A stretch of 26,536 bases of DNA. It comes from a virus. Position 1 is the first letter of the stretch. Each line of letters starts with the position of its first letter. Below are positions 609 to 21,012 of the stretch, piece by piece. The notes beneath the pieces were generated by a model, which ran no database searches, was not told the DNA's origin, and saw only the letters and a program-made list of their open reading frames with translations. The translations under genes were made by a program, and so were the position numbers. The stretch lies in the IMG/VR virus record IMGVR_UViG_3300002144_000203, positions 1 through 26,536 of that record. One strand, 5' to 3'.

Positions 609-1625
609 ATGATTCAACGTATAGGCTTCGCATGCAAATACATGCACCCAGATCAAACACAATCTAAGAAACTGCTTGAAGAAATTCAGCGGCCACTAAA
701 TACTAAGTCAACTACAGTACAGTGGTTGAACAGGCAGACTAAAGAAATTGCAGAGCAAAGGTTGTGGGACATTATGGAACACAACATTGCAGCTTACGGG
801 AGATTGATAGAATATGTCGGTAGCTTACCACAAGGTCTTAGAATGGTTAGACTCGGCAGCGATTGTCTTCCTGTTTACACTCAGCAGGATTGGCGGTACT
901 ACTGGCGACTACCAGACGTTATTGCCTATTGTGAAAGAGAGTTTGCCAAGGTGGGCGAGACTGCTCGTAGGCTTGATGTACGTTTGTCTATGCATCCTGG
1001 CCAGTTTACTGTTCTTGCTAGTGATGACGCTGATATTGTTGAGCGTAGTATAGAGGAGTTTGAGTATCACACGGATATCATCAGGTGGATGGGCTACGGT
1101 CGCAAGTTTCAAGACTTCAAGTGTAATGTCCACATATCAGGTAGACAAGGTCCAGCCGGTATCAAAGCCGCTCTTACCCGCCTCACACCGGAAGCAAGAA
1201 ACTGTATTACTATCGAAAACGACGAAAACAAATGGGGTCTCGAACACAGTCTTGAGCTTGCAGACGATCTCGCTCTGGTGCTAGATATCCATCACCACCT
1301 GTGCCGTGAAGGTGAATACATACAGCCCACCGACGATAGATTTAAACGTGTAATTGACAGCTGGCGTGGTGTACGTCCTGCAATACATTATTCATACAGT
1401 CGTGAAGAATGGGTAGGACACATTGATACAAATACTAAGCCAGACTTTCCTGCATTACTAGAGCAAGGTTATAAGAAAGCAAAACTACGTGCTCATAGCG
1501 ATTGGTATCCGAATAAGGCAGTAAATGACTGGGCACTAAGCTTCTTACCTTATACAGATATCATGTGCGAGTCAAAATTTAAGAACCTAGCATCAATAGA
1601 GTTATACAACTATGCCAAATCATAG
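609..1625 (+). CDS. uvdE: UV DNA damage endonuclease (UvdE/UvsE family)
   Basis: The product (338 aa) resembles UV damage endonuclease, a metal-dependent TIM-barrel enzyme that nicks DNA 5' of pyrimidine dimers and some other lesions to start excision repair. The family pattern runs through the whole chain: RIGFACKY at the N-terminus, RLGSD (81-85), LSMHPGQF (126-133), NVHISG (173-178), IENDE (202-206), LDIHHH (225-230), IHYS (259-262) and AHSDW (295-299). Candidate metal ligands include His129, His175, Glu203, Asp226, His229, His260, His296 and Glu321. Length is normal for the bacterial family, and no key motif is missing. AGG at 599-601 is a weak ribosome binding site. The strong host-type promoter suggests early expression, fitting repair of phage DNA in sunlit water. 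The 3' end overlaps the next gene by 14 bases. Confidence 0.93.
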   Translation: MIQRIGFACKYMHPDQTQSKKLLEEIQRPLNTKSTTVQWLNRQTKEIAEQRLWDIMEHNIAAYGRLIEYVGSLPQGLRMVRLGSDCLPVYTQQDWRYYWRLPDVIAYCEREFAKVGETARRLDVRLSMHPGQFTVLASDDADIVERSIEEFEYHTDIIRWMGYGRKFQDFKCNVHISGRQGPAGIKAALTRLTPEARNCITIENDENKWGLEHSLELADDLALVLDIHHHLCREGEYIQPTDDRFKRVIDSWRGVRPAIHYSYSREEWVGHIDTNTKPDFPALLEQGYKKAKLRAHSDWYPNKAVNDWALSFLPYTDIMCESKFKNLASIELYNYAKS

Positions 1626-2756: not shown

Positions 2757-2797
2757 ATATGTGTTTAAATAGTAATAGTTCCCAGGAGAATTATTAT

Positions 2798-4081
2798 ATG
2801 AAATATATTACAGCAGCACTAGCAGCGTTATTCCCACTTGTCCTATCAGCACAAACATACACTAACGAAGTAGCAAGTATCATCAACGATAATTGTGTAG
2901 TGTGTCATCGTGCAGGCGGCATTGGGCCAATGAGTTTTGAAACATACGAGCAAGTAAGACCGTGGGCTCCTCTTATACAAATGAGAGTAGCAAACAGAGA
3001 AATGCCTCCATATGCTTACGATCACGGTATTGGCATACAGGATCTACAAGGCGATTGGCGACTTTCACAAGAAGATATTGACACAGTTGTTGCGTGGGTA
3101 AACACAGGCTCGCAGTATGGAGATCCTGACACAGTAGTACAGTCAGTTGACTTGGGCGATCCAGAAGCATGGAACTTTGAAGCAGACTTTGGTGCACCAG
3201 ACGCAATCATTCCTTCAGTAGCAATAGACATTCCTGCAAACGGAAATGATCTTTGGCACAAGCACTTAGTACCAACAGGACTAACTGAAGACAGATGTAT
3301 CAAAGCAGTACAAGTTAAACCACGTGGCGAAGCTAAGGCTGTCGTACATCACGCTAACTCAAGTATCATAACATCAGAAGGGCGTGAAGGCATGCTCACT
3401 GAGTACGCTATGGGAAAGTGGGGAGAGATCGTGCCAGAAGGAGTATGTCGCACGATCCCCGCAAACGCAGAGATCAGTTGGGATATTCACATGTTCCCAG
3501 GTGGACTTGGCGCAATGGCTCCAGGAGCGGTTATCAAAGACAACGTAGTGGAGATTGGACTCTGGTTATATACCGAAGAGGAAAGCGCACAACTGAAATA
3601 CAAACAAGATTTGAGTTTGTATCGCCTTGGAGATCAGGACGATTTAGTAGTCCCACCCAATGGATATGCAATGACTCAGGGCTTTCACAGTTTCGATCAT
3701 CCTGTACGTTTAGATAGTTTTCAGCCACACGGACACTTGCGTATGAATGCAGCAAGTTTAGAAATCTTCTATCCAGAAACAGGACGCACAGAACAGATTA
3801 GTCAGATAAGCAAGTGGAGTGCAACTTGGCATCACAGTCATTTGTATGCTCCAGAAGCTGCACCACTAATACCTGCGGGCGCAGTTATTATACTAAAGCA
3901 GTGGTATGACAATACTGCTGATAATCCAAATAATCCTGATCCAGATATGTTTGTTATGGGAGGCTCAAGAACAGGAGATGAAATGACTCACGCTTGGCTT
4001 GCTATTACACACTTAGACGAAGAAGGATACATCAAACTAAAAGAGGAAAGAGATGAAAAATTTAATATTGCTAGTAAGTAG
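2798..4081 (+). CDS. Exported c-type heme / copper type II monooxygenase-like protein
   Basis: This 427-residue protein combines two modules. Residues 1-19 (MKYITAALAALFPLVLSA) look like a Sec signal peptide, so it should be exported. Residues about 23-115 carry one c-type heme motif, C33-V-V-C36-H37, with Met69 in MPPYA as a possible distal ligand. The rest resembles the dicopper ascorbate-dependent monooxygenases (PHM and dopamine beta-hydroxylase): His184-His185, His231, the His311-Gly-His313 pair and Met396 fall in the order of the PHM copper ligands (HH, H, HxH, M). Bacterial proteins fusing a cytochrome-like region to this fold are known; the substrate is usually unknown. The ATG at 2798 is chosen because AGGAG precedes it by 9 bases and the signal peptide starts there. 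The upstream in-frame ATG at 2759 would place a polar stretch before the signal. The host would have to supply heme, copper and cytochrome c maturation. Confidence 0.82.
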   Translation: MKYITAALAALFPLVLSAQTYTNEVASIINDNCVVCHRAGGIGPMSFETYEQVRPWAPLIQMRVANREMPPYAYDHGIGIQDLQGDWRLSQEDIDTVVAWVNTGSQYGDPDTVVQSVDLGDPEAWNFEADFGAPDAIIPSVAIDIPANGNDLWHKHLVPTGLTEDRCIKAVQVKPRGEAKAVVHHANSSIITSEGREGMLTEYAMGKWGEIVPEGVCRTIPANAEISWDIHMFPGGLGAMAPGAVIKDNVVEIGLWLYTEEESAQLKYKQDLSLYRLGDQDDLVVPPNGYAMTQGFHSFDHPVRLDSFQPHGHLRMNAASLEIFYPETGRTEQISQISKWSATWHHSHLYAPEAAPLIPAGAVIILKQWYDNTADNPNNPDPDMFVMGGSRTGDEMTHAWLAITHLDEEGYIKLKEERDEKFNIASK

Positions 4082-4226
4082 TATTATTATAACAGGATGC
4101 ACTAGTTCAGGTTACAATGGTCCGCATGAGTTTGATTGGATGCCTGAGCGAATAGTATGGGAGCAAAATATTAGAAATTGTAGGAGTGCGGACGTTTGTA
4201 GAGCAGAAACACTGTTTAGACGATAA
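4053..4226 (+). CDS. Small predicted lipoprotein, 57 aa
   Basis: The frame starts inside the 3' end of the heme/copper enzyme gene (29-base overlap) with GAGGAAAG just upstream. The N-terminus MKNLILLVSSIIITGC has a basic start, a hydrophobic core and a lipobox (I-T-G-C16), so Cys16 should be lipidated and the protein anchored facing the periplasm. The mature part is about 42 residues and includes two Cys (43 and 49) that could form a disulfide. The overlap suggests coupled translation with the exported enzyme and perhaps a shared role. A spanin subunit (Rz1) was considered, but it is not proline-rich and no Rz partner is visible. Function unknown. Confidence 0.68.
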   Translation: MKNLILLVSSIIITGCTSSGYNGPHEFDWMPERIVWEQNIRNCRSADVCRAETLFRR

Positions 4227-4585: not shown

Positions 4586-4951
4586 ATGACAATTTGTACA
4601 CTATCTGACACTGCAAAGAAACAAATCGACACAATTTGTGAAGAAAATGAGTGCTATGCAGTAACACTTAACCTAAAAGGCGGCGGGTGTGCAGGGTTTG
4701 AATACGAATGGGGAACATTAGCAACTCCAGAAGAGGTAGAAGCTAACGACATAGTCCTAAAAACAGACACAAACTGCACTTTTGTAATTGGTGCAGCAAG
4801 TATGATGTTCCTTGTAGGAACAGAGATAAATTATAAAAAAGATATTATGGGTTCAATGTTTGAAATCATTAACCCTAACGCAAAATCAGCGTGTGGGTGC
4901 GGTATAAGTGTAAACTTTGACGTAGACAAATTAGCAATTCCAGCAATATAA
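4586..4951 (+). CDS. hesB: A-type iron-sulfur cluster carrier (HesB/IscA-like)
   Basis: This 121-residue protein has the signature of A-type Fe-S carriers, which hold and transfer Fe-S clusters to apoproteins: Cys35 in GGGCAGFEY and the C-terminal Cys103-Gly-Cys105-Gly. The spacing (C35 to C103, 67 residues between) is right for the family. Further Cys at 4, 18, 23 and 64 are not family ligands. Homologues are reported as auxiliary genes in marine myoviruses. The gene has its own late promoter, and its stop is only 16 bases before the 2915-residue virion protein, so it is expressed at the time of virion assembly. It may mature a virion protein or be packaged in the tail. Supporting host Fe-S supply is the alternative. 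Confidence 0.9.
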   Translation: MTICTLSDTAKKQIDTICEENECYAVTLNLKGGGCAGFEYEWGTLATPEEVEANDIVLKTDTNCTFVIGAASMMFLVGTEINYKKDIMGSMFEIINPNAKSACGCGISVNFDVDKLAIPAI

Positions 4952-17235: not shown

Positions 17236-20200
17236 ATGAGCGAAAGAGAATATATTGTAAGTTTAAATAAAGGCGTAGACTACGCAGCATTTAATCAAGA
17301 AATGATAGCAGTAACCGGTGCTGGAGATATTCCAGGTCGTTCAGTTGAAGTTGCAAATGCTAGACCCAGTAGTGAACGTAACACGCATTATAATTTGACC
17401 GACGAAGAAGCAGCAGTACTTGCTAATGATCCTAGAGTTTATGGTGTTACACTATTGCCCGAACTTGACCCAAATATTGGAATTGGCACCAGTGCTATAC
17501 AAGCTGGCGATTTTACAAAAACTACTCTAGATCGAGGCGACTACTTAAACTGGGGTATGCGCAGAATTAACGAAGCCGCAAATCCATATACTGGTGTTAA
17601 TGTTACAGGTGGATATAATTATACGCTAGACGGAACTGGTGTTGATGTTGTTATTATGGATAGCGGATTACAAATTGATCATCCAGAATTTCAAGATGCA
17701 CAAGGTGTAAGTAGAGTTGTAGAACTTAACTGGACAACTGCTAGTGGTATTGCGGGTATGCCTGCACAAAATGCTAACTATTACAGAGATTATGATGGAC
17801 ATGGCACACACGTTGCAGGAACAGTAGCAGGCAAAACATATGGCTGGGCAAAGAACGCTAGAATTTATAGTTTAAAACTTAATGGACTAGAAGGTACTGG
17901 AGACAGTGGCACAGGCACAAGCACAACATATGCATTTGATTGTATTAAAGAATGGCACAATGCTAAACCAATCGATTCAGCAACCGGAGTTAAGCGACCA
18001 ACTGTCGTTAACATGAGTTGGGGGTACCTAGCATACTATTCTTCAGTTAGTTCAATGACATATCGCGGAGACGTAAAAACTGGTACAGATATTGATAGTT
18101 CAGCAAAACGTCATGTGTTTGGGCTGGTCCCAATTTTTAATCCTGTTGCCGGAGCATTTGTGACTAATGTAAGAATACCTTCGGTTGATGTAGACATGGA
18201 AGAATTGATTGATGCGGGTGTACATGTTATGGTTGCAGCAGGAAATAGAAGTCATAAAATTGACGCACCGGCTGGCGATGATTACGATAATTTTGCTGTA
18301 ACTAACACAGGAACTATATACTATCACAGAGGAAGCTCTCCTTACAGCACAAACGCACACATAGTCGGTAATGTCGATAGTACAGAGCATGTAGACGGAT
18401 TAGAGCAAAAAGCAGTAAGTTCAGAAGCCGGTCCCGGTGTTAGCGTATTTGCGCCAGGTACGGATATTATGAGTGCTATGAGTACAACTAACAAATTTGG
18501 TGCAACTACAGTTAACAATCCTTACCCTGCAAATGCTGCATTTTTAATTAATAATATAACCGGCACGTCAATGGCTTCTCCGCAAATTGCAGGTATGCTA
18601 ACATTATGGTTGCAATTAAACCCAGAGGCTACACCTGCACAAGGGTTAGCATTTGTTAGCGCTACTGCTAAAACAAATCAATTATACGACACTGTAAGTG
18701 ATACTGATTATAGTATTGACCGAAGTCTATTAGGTAGTACAAATAGATTTGCATTTAATAAATTTAACAGTAATGTTCAAATGAGACTAGGTACACCTGT
18801 AGCGGCAGCAGCAGCACCAGCAGTAGCTACATATGCACTATCAAGTTCTGTAGCATCAGTTAATGAAGGAAGTTCGTTTACTATAACATTAACAACAACA
18901 AATATAACAGACGGAACTACAGTACCATACACTATTACTGGAGTAACTACTGCTGACATCGGCGGCGCCAGTTTGACCGGCAACTTTACTGTAAATAGTA
19001 ATACTGCAACAGCTACATTTAGTGTAACAGCTGATGCTACAACAGAAGGCGCAGAAACATTTGTATTGACATTAAACGCATTGAGCACAACACAAAGTGT
19101 GACAATTAATGATACAAGTACTACACCGTTAGTACCTGCTTATGTAGTAGCGCCAGCAGCAAACAACGTAAATGAAGGTAGTGCGCTAACATTCAACGTT
19201 ACTACAACTAACGTAAGTGATGCAACTACACTATATTGGAGTGTTACAAACGCAGGCGACTTTGGAACAGCGACTGGTAGCTTTACAATCACAAGCAACG
19301 CAGGTTCGTTTAGTGTTACTCCAACAGCTGATGCTACAACAGAAGGCGCAGAAACTTTTACAGCAAGTGTAAGAACAGGCAGCGTAGGCGGAACAATAGT
19401 TGCAACTTCGAGTGCAGTTACAATTAATGACACTAGTACTACACCTGGTGGCGGTGAATCGTATGCACTAGCAGCTAGCAGTGAATCAATAACTGAAGGT
19501 GAAAACACAACATTTACACTTACAACTACTAATGTAGCAGACGCAACTAATGTAGCGTATACAATTACTGGTGTATCAAGTTCAGACTTAGACAACGGTC
19601 CAAGAAGAAAAACAGCCGCTAAAGACTTTGAAGGTCCGGGCAGTGCATTCTTTAAAAGAGAAATGCAAGTTGGTGGTGTTAGACTTGTTATTGCAGGCGG
19701 CGTAGGCGGCCAAACAGCAGTACCAGATTTGTTTGCTGATAAAGTAGCACGTATGTTTGAATTGTTTACTGATAGTGCAGGCGCAGGTATTAACGCAGGC
19801 AAACAAAACCAAATGATAGAAACATTACTTGGTAATACAACATCTTACCATTCAAATTATCCAACTATACAAAGAATTGCAAGAGGTGCAGGCGGCGACT
19901 ATACTCCAAACTTCTTAACTGATGCAGGAATAAGTGCTTGGGGACTATCACCATTGTTTGATGTATCAGTGCAAAACGATATGGTTTGGTATTTGAATTC
20001 AACAGGCGGAGCACCTGGAGATGGCGATATCGATGCACAAGAAGTTATTGAGCACGTATTCCACACACTACACATGCATGGTATAGATGCAGTAACATTA
20101 AAAATGTATCCAACTCTAAGTGCAGACTGGGCAACGGGTGATTTGTATAACGCAATGGCAGAAGCATTTGATGCAAATAAATGGGATCCACAAGGGTATA

Positions 20201-21012
20201 ACAATCCATCGAACGCTTGGAAGACAGATCCAGATGCATTTGAAGTAGCAGTCAAAGAATACTTGTACTTGTTAAACTTCTGTATGTTTGATTATTCAAG
20301 TCTATGGGATGGTGAAAGTCTTGCTCCTGAGTGGACAGATGATATGCGCACGCCAGCAGGTATACTAGCAAACAATCCGTTAGGCCATGCGTTGTTTAAT
20401 ACGCATATAGCAGATGTAATTAGTAAGCCATCACTCACAACTATTAGAAGTATATTCCAAGATGGTGATGTAGGCAATCCAGCACTAGGAGGTGCATCGG
20501 GTTATGTTCCAGATGCTGCAATTCCGCTAACTGGTAACTTTACAGTTAGTTCAGACTCTGCTACACTAACTCTTAACGTAGCAAAAGACGGAGTTGTTGA
20601 CGTAGATTCACTAACAGTTACTCTAGACAACGGCGAAGCAAATCAGGCTGTTACAATTGCTGACGATGGTGTTGTACCAGGTTTTGCACCAGACTATGCA
20701 CTATATGTAACTAACCCAGGCGGCAACGAATATACACTGAGTGGTTACGACAGAAATGGTTTAGTTAGTGGTGCGCAACCTACATTGGCTTATAACAATG
20801 GTGACAAAGTACTTGTTACTATACAAGGTAGTACTTCAAGTGCGCATCCTTTCTACATTAAAACTGCACAAGGCACAGGCACTGGTAATCAAGCAAGTGG
20901 CGCAGATGGCGGCGGAACACCAGTAGTTAAATGGACAATTGGAAGTACTGGAACATTCTACTATCAGTGCAGCATACACAGTGCAATGAACAATACAATA
21001 ACAGTATCATAA
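17236..21012 (+). CDS. Subtilisin-type protease with Calx-beta-like repeats and C-terminal cupredoxin, 1258 aa
   Basis: Regions in order: an N-terminal part (1-80) that may act as an I9-like propeptide; an S8 subtilase domain (about 130-490) with complete triad Asp142 (VVIMDSG), His189 (DGHGTHVAG) and Ser445 (GTSMASP) and oxyanion Asn337 (AAGN); Calx-beta-like repeats A (533-629) and B (635-735); and a third repeat (743-787) interrupted by about 309 residues and resumed at 1096-1146. The insert is an unrecognised domain with E936-x2-E939-H940-x2-H943 and nearby His946 and His948, possibly metal-binding. The C-terminus (1152-1258) is cupredoxin-like, with His1204, Cys1245, His1248 and Met1251 placed as in a type-1 copper site. 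There is no signal peptide, and the gene sits in the late fibre unit, so it is probably a virion-associated protease that cuts cell-surface proteins, processes fibres, or both. AGGAAA lies 8 bases before the ATG. Confidence 0.9.
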   Translation: MSEREYIVSLNKGVDYAAFNQEMIAVTGAGDIPGRSVEVANARPSSERNTHYNLTDEEAAVLANDPRVYGVTLLPELDPNIGIGTSAIQAGDFTKTTLDRGDYLNWGMRRINEAANPYTGVNVTGGYNYTLDGTGVDVVIMDSGLQIDHPEFQDAQGVSRVVELNWTTASGIAGMPAQNANYYRDYDGHGTHVAGTVAGKTYGWAKNARIYSLKLNGLEGTGDSGTGTSTTYAFDCIKEWHNAKPIDSATGVKRPTVVNMSWGYLAYYSSVSSMTYRGDVKTGTDIDSSAKRHVFGLVPIFNPVAGAFVTNVRIPSVDVDMEELIDAGVHVMVAAGNRSHKIDAPAGDDYDNFAVTNTGTIYYHRGSSPYSTNAHIVGNVDSTEHVDGLEQKAVSSEAGPGVSVFAPGTDIMSAMSTTNKFGATTVNNPYPANAAFLINNITGTSMASPQIAGMLTLWLQLNPEATPAQGLAFVSATAKTNQLYDTVSDTDYSIDRSLLGSTNRFAFNKFNSNVQMRLGTPVAAAAAPAVATYALSSSVASVNEGSSFTITLTTTNITDGTTVPYTITGVTTADIGGASLTGNFTVNSNTATATFSVTADATTEGAETFVLTLNALSTTQSVTINDTSTTPLVPAYVVAPAANNVNEGSALTFNVTTTNVSDATTLYWSVTNAGDFGTATGSFTITSNAGSFSVTPTADATTEGAETFTASVRTGSVGGTIVATSSAVTINDTSTTPGGGESYALAASSESITEGENTTFTLTTTNVADATNVAYTITGVSSSDLDNGPRRKTAAKDFEGPGSAFFKREMQVGGVRLVIAGGVGGQTAVPDLFADKVARMFELFTDSAGAGINAGKQNQMIETLLGNTTSYHSNYPTIQRIARGAGGDYTPNFLTDAGISAWGLSPLFDVSVQNDMVWYLNSTGGAPGDGDIDAQEVIEHVFHTLHMHGIDAVTLKMYPTLSADWATGDLYNAMAEAFDANKWDPQGYNNPSNAWKTDPDAFEVAVKEYLYLLNFCMFDYSSLWDGESLAPEWTDDMRTPAGILANNPLGHALFNTHIADVISKPSLTTIRSIFQDGDVGNPALGGASGYVPDAAIPLTGNFTVSSDSATLTLNVAKDGVVDVDSLTVTLDNGEANQAVTIADDGVVPGFAPDYALYVTNPGGNEYTLSGYDRNGLVSGAQPTLAYNNGDKVLVTIQGSTSSAHPFYIKTAQGTGTGNQASGADGGGTPVVKWTIGSTGTFYYQCSIHSAMNNTITVS
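19026..19058 (+). repeat. 33-bp perfect direct repeat, copy 1 (Calx-beta-like repeat A)
   Basis: This stretch is identical to 19323-19355, 297 bases (99 codons) downstream and in the same frame. It encodes the Asp/Glu-rich turn ADATTEGAETF, shared by repeats A and B. Identity down to third codon positions suggests recent duplication or gene conversion rather than protein-level conservation alone. Confidence 0.9.
19323..19355 (+). repeat. 33-bp perfect direct repeat, copy 2 (Calx-beta-like repeat B)
   Basis: Second copy of the repeat at 19026-19058, in the same reading frame and at the same place in the next Calx-beta-like unit. The 99-codon offset equals the length of one unit with its linker. 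Confidence 0.9.

Follow-up and report, generated by a model that had tools for sequence, protein, structure and literature searches.

What would a phage do with a complete redox enzyme made for the periplasm? The question is raised by a 26.5-kb virus record, analysed over its whole length of 26,536 nucleotides (the window), and by one gene in it, named A here. The reading frame of A is free of stops from position 2759, and an ATG at 2798 opens a 427-aa product. B denotes a divergent paralogue that often follows A in other viral loci. The features of A are as follows.

2784..2788, plus strand: AGGAG ribosome-binding site, 9 nt ahead of the ATG (from the sequence)
2798..4081, plus strand: gene A, encoding an exported cytochrome c / PHM-fold dicopper monooxygenase-like protein of 427 aa (from sequence, homologues and fold comparison)
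2798..2854, plus strand: Sec-type signal peptide MKYITAALAALFPLVLSAQ, residues about 1-19 (from the sequence)
2894..2908, plus strand: CVVCH heme c site, C33-H37; the CxxCH is invariant in A, B and bacterial relatives
3002..3004, plus strand: M69 of an MPP motif, candidate distal heme ligand; invariant
3347..3352, plus strand: H184 and H185, CuH-type ligands; invariant in 24 diverse relatives, in a domain that matches PHM
3488..3490, plus strand: H231, third CuH-type ligand; invariant
3728..3736, plus strand: H311-G-H313, CuM-type ligands; invariant in viral A and B, lost in one bacterial paralogue type
3983..3985, plus strand: M396, CuM-type thioether ligand; invariant in viral A and aligned with M399 of B

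A first-pass annotation had claimed a signal peptide, a single CxxCH heme motif with a candidate distal Met, and all six PHM-type copper positions in order. Each of these was found. The leader is present in the translation, and homologues keep a hydrophobic leader of variable sequence. The heme residues, the Met and all copper-ligand residues are invariant in an alignment of 21 viral homologues, which have a mean column identity of 83% over the whole protein. Likewise, the heme Cys and His, the Met, HH, H and HxH are all invariant among 66 dereplicated viral A and B proteins. With its export signal, CxxCH and axial Met, A has the marks of a c-type cytochrome with predicted heme attachment, although the Pfam cytochrome models match it weakly (18.9 bits vs a cut-off of 21.3, and 19.4 vs 27). 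The three His of a CuH site and the His, His and Met of a CuM site follow each other in the PHM/DBH order. A small ligand set alone could be a matter of chance. A has a median dN/dS of 0.087 and B one of 0.094, with synonymous sites close to saturation; ligand invariance under such conditions, combined with the fold match described next, makes chance very unlikely.

Is the copper part of A really of the PHM type? In phmmer and hmmsearch searches of Pfam, NCBIfam, PHROGs and the PDB, A gave no significant copper-domain match, and even a profile built from diverse family members (A4) failed to pick up PHM among the PDB sequences. The copper-domain claim thus rests on fold comparison. The AlphaFold models of A and B were made from shallow and narrow alignments and have mean pLDDT values of 50 and 53, respectively; the heme domain was not reliably modelled in either. 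At this low pLDDT, PHM and DBH nevertheless make up the top 26 solved structures for the A model (Z 8.7-11.4, next entry 6.7) and for the B model (Z 12-14.4, next entry 9.1), and they also come first in Foldseek. The structure comparison proposed in the first-pass annotation therefore came out in its favour: the copper part of both models matches PHM/DBH and nothing else comparably, and two tandem copper beta-sandwich domains are predicted in models with a pLDDT of about 50. In the B model, the putative ligand M399 lies 9 residues ahead of the end of the PHM alignment (model residue 408 = PHM 323). M314, the copper ligand of PHM, likewise lies 9 residues ahead of this end. Neither PF01082 nor PF03712 matches A, and the best B-type or bacterial relative reaches an E-value of 0.0022, under the Pfam cut-off, which is a library criterion and not a biochemical one. 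Because of this score, A is classed as PHM-fold or PHM-like and kept apart from the two Pfam families. Taken together, A is very probably a heme-fused PHM-fold protein. It shares with PHM/DBH the two copper beta-sandwich domains (by fold), the order HH..H plus HxH..M, and export, while A and B are only about 10-17% identical to these enzymes, carry a fused N-terminal cytochrome c, and are of bacterial or phage origin.

Is A truly a phage gene? The neighbours in the window look phage-like, as had been noted: besides two proteins whose N-termini are of the T4 gp9/10 type and fibre-like proteins of great length, the following genes were identified.

609-1625, plus strand: UvdE UV-damage endonuclease; the closest deposited relative, from phage NCTB (50%), gives no help on the host
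4586-4951, plus strand: Fe-S_biosyn (SufA/IscA-type) gene adjoining A, possibly another auxiliary gene
17236-21012, plus strand: 1258-aa phage protein carrying a peptidase domain of the subtilase (S8) type, amid the fibre genes; it may be a tail protease that cuts a receptor or matrix

The block of A, optionally B, a gene of cluster c9, the Fe-S gene and a fibre gene is conserved in many relatives of the window. A scan of IMG/VR for the same fusion found that at least 259 viral stretches encode A relatives, a lower bound since exact peptide patterns were matched, with some contigs not being independent genomes; the 80 that were retained are 74-93% identical. A occurs in at least seven distinct phage neighbourhoods. 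A T4-type capsid gene (Gp23) shares the contig with A in six tested records, including those of 339,794 and 230,036 bp. In 17 loci, A follows the major head gene either immediately or with one small gene in between, and a tail-tube gene lies downstream of A where the locus extends far enough. A is carried by many T4-like viruses that only metagenomes have revealed. The earlier view that such an enzyme is very unusual for a phage holds for isolates, among which A is absent from all 50,697 deposited phage records, but not for uncultivated phages, in which it is common in what appears to be one host group.

Assembly chimerism or bacterial contamination of the viral bins was also considered. A is the GC maximum of the window (0.456 vs 0.34-0.44 elsewhere), in line with a host-derived gene, and has bacterial homologues. 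The many viral stretches and contexts, the phage genes on both flanks, the capsid genes on the same contigs and a dN/dS of 0.09 speak against a chimera; conversely, the A genes of two non-gammaproteobacterial MAGs are located on phage-like contigs. This explanation, which the first-pass annotation had named as its possible undoing, was rejected as already refuted by independent contigs, and its probability is negligible.

In the viral loci, A is often part of a cassette, whose B and small cytochrome c escaped the first-pass annotation, as did the lipoprotein described below. Downstream sequence of 2 kb or more is available for 63 distinct viral A genes; 49 of them have B directly behind, with a small cytochrome c between the two genes in nine cases. 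Seen from the other side, all 36 testable viral B genes adjoin A. B retains the heme site and all copper ligands. It was rejected as a plain copy of A: the identity is about 25-30%, the bacterial ancestor is a different one, and an N-terminal domain has been lost. In loci syntenic with the window, B separates A from the c9 gene that comes next. B is missing from the window and from several other loci, and a previously unannotated small gene takes its place in the window.

4053..4226, plus strand: 57-aa lipoprotein (lipobox TGC, motif NxRxCR....CxAxxLF) overlapping the end of A; the start codon is approximate

By its pattern, this lipoprotein family was found in 52 viral loci, in many of them directly after A or beside A and/or B, and it is absent beside bacterial A genes. 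It was rejected as a fixed partner of A in general; since 20 loci have neither A nor B within 3 kb, the lipoprotein is at most a frequent companion. A match in the Pseudohongiella genome G001 (E 1.5e-4) was dropped as weak and in an unrelated context.

Where did the phages obtain A and B? I scanned genomes of about 85,000 species of bacteria and archaea. Among the best 76 loci, A-type relatives are nearly confined to marine Gammaproteobacteria (Pseudohongiella, OM182 and SAR86-labelled MAGs), and the two exceptions sit on phage-like contigs. A-type genes are present in 19 of 39 genomes from the family of G001, and among 369 genomes from its class only in G001 itself. Eleven Pseudohongiella-type genomes have 16-57 matches each across the broader family, with some proteins counted as two pieces. 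The largest number, 57 matches to this cytochrome c-PHM family, which has no named NCBIfam or Pfam family, belongs to a Pseudohongiella genome of 6.6 Mb (G013). Identity between phage A and the closest genuinely bacterial gene reaches about 84%. For phage B, identity with its bacterial relative, which has an extra thioredoxin-like N-terminal domain, is 50-56%. These bacterial proteins are the direct relatives of phage A and B and have the same domain order; the differences are that phage B is free of the thioredoxin-like domain and that bacterial A genes are arrayed in tandem together with genes for transporters and oxidoreductases while phage A stands amid phage genes. The tree calls for several moves between hosts and viruses. 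A viral clade of 38 rows adjoins bacterial A, and a second one of six rows is nested inside bacterial A, each separately supported. Judging from these sequences, phage A has been captured at least twice. The host of the A-carrying phages is probably one marine bacterial family of the Pseudohongiella type, an assignment made from gene relatedness only. Two public MAGs deserve mention in their own right: a 335-kb T4-like phage contig with Gp23 and A (G006 contig C57; L085/L180) was binned in a Marinimicrobia (Neomarinimicrobiota) MAG, and a viral-looking contig carrying A was binned in a Flavobacteriales MAG (L105).

The bacterial gene neighbourhoods give a hint of function. The tandem arrays of A face a B-like gene without HxH and adjoin genes for a monocarboxylate/bile-salt-type MFS transporter, a GMC alcohol oxidoreductase and its partner, a cupin, and c7, an exported protein in which one stretch is rich in His and Met. 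The location of bacterial A beside the MFS, GMC and c7 genes suggests substrate uptake, hydroxylation and oxidation of the alcohol. In the B-like bacterial proteins (L089:4992-6731 and relatives), the CuM HxH has been lost (RARMN) while the CuH ligands, the Met and the heme site are kept. A 317-aa exported protein (cluster c1; L156:6731-7684 and relatives) stands beside the A arrays in 52 bacterial loci; it has no Pfam match and is likely a partner of the bacterial enzyme. No c1, MFS or GMC gene of this operon turned up in the phage loci examined.

How might the enzyme work? Loaded with heme and copper, A would be an exported periplasmic oxygenase in which an N-terminal c-type cytochrome is joined to two copper domains of PHM/DBH fold. 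The animal PHM/DBH enzymes take their electrons from ascorbate. In A, the fused heme likely replaces ascorbate as the electron entry, and I infer that electrons probably pass from the quinol/cytochrome c pool of the host through this heme to CuH. CuH and CuM would then jointly activate O2 for the hydroxylation of a C-H bond in a small substrate of the periplasm. The simplest scheme is that an organic substrate is taken up and hydroxylated by A, and the resulting alcohol is oxidised by the GMC enzyme. The phages would have acquired A, usually together with B, from Pseudohongiella-type marine Gammaproteobacteria, and by analogy with phage PmoC, A and B may raise the flux through periplasmic oxidation of the host during infection. 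A is a host-derived gene in genuine phage genomes and is under purifying selection, with a dN/dS of about 0.09. These findings support the earlier reading of A as an auxiliary metabolic gene, a role slightly better than an even bet. Overall, the best explanation is a periplasmic O2-dependent hydroxylase that is reduced by its own heme and serves as an auxiliary metabolic gene, with a probability of roughly 0.6.

Other readings accept the gene as phage-borne but assign it a different task. A might drain periplasmic electrons of the host to O2 for redox balance with no specific product, an idea that draws on the presence of an electron-transfer heme and an O2 site on one polypeptide, on the additional small cytochrome c of nine viral cassettes, and on phage loci in which the bacterial operon's transporter and GMC genes are missing. 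However, the whole protein and not the ligands alone is conserved, which suggests a real substrate, and two divergent paralogues are retained. I regard an electron or oxygen sink as unlikely. Somewhat less probable still is a modification of the envelope or a receptor by A, perhaps with the lipoprotein, that would block superinfection or aid release. The export of A, the frequent overlap or adjacency of the lipoprotein gene, and the established biochemistry of PHM, which acts on peptides, are compatible with it, and late expression is plausible from the position of A behind the major head gene; yet the host copies stand beside transporter and oxidoreductase genes and not beside envelope genes, and the 20 lipoprotein loci apart from A and B weaken the link further. 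Finally, the bacterial paralogue with RARMN shows that the family tolerates the loss of CuM, and A could be a non-catalytic exported binder of heme and copper that acts as a copper buffer or an electron shuttle. All viral A and B proteins examined have the full six-ligand set, which makes such a role improbable.

The hydroxylase reading, which I prefer, has a partial precedent. Phages carry single copper monooxygenase subunits, namely PmoC and AmoC, and animals use the PHM/DBH fold to make hormones. Large freshwater phages carry PmoC, the subunit C of methane monooxygenase, with a proposed auxiliary role; as with A, large phages took a copper monooxygenase gene from the host, but PmoC forms one subunit, in the membrane, of an enzyme that has three, whereas A is a complete exported polypeptide with an unrelated fold and its own heme (PMC7674155). 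With its different fold and architecture, A is not a subunit C of the PmoC/AmoC type, and the comparison is limited to the biological role. In the open-access papers searched, neither a phage enzyme of the PHM type nor the Pseudohongiella-type cytochrome c-PHM family was found to be described. A further-reaching proposal is that phages encode a complete two-enzyme periplasmic oxygenase system consisting of A and B, sometimes with the small cytochrome c, in which the fused heme replaces ascorbate, the thioredoxin-free B has been streamlined by phages, and the oxidative metabolism of the marine host family is altered during infection. This would apparently be the first phage-encoded case; I offer it tentatively, at a little short of even odds.

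The phages described here carry a whole exported oxygenase-like protein with an electron-transfer heme, and often two of them. That A has been kept at many unrelated genome positions points to a strong and specific benefit in infection. Marine Gammaproteobacteria hold an almost undescribed and massively expanded enzyme family, and the phage versions show which of the many bacterial copies matter most, giving a handle on the substrates that these bacteria oxidise in the ocean.
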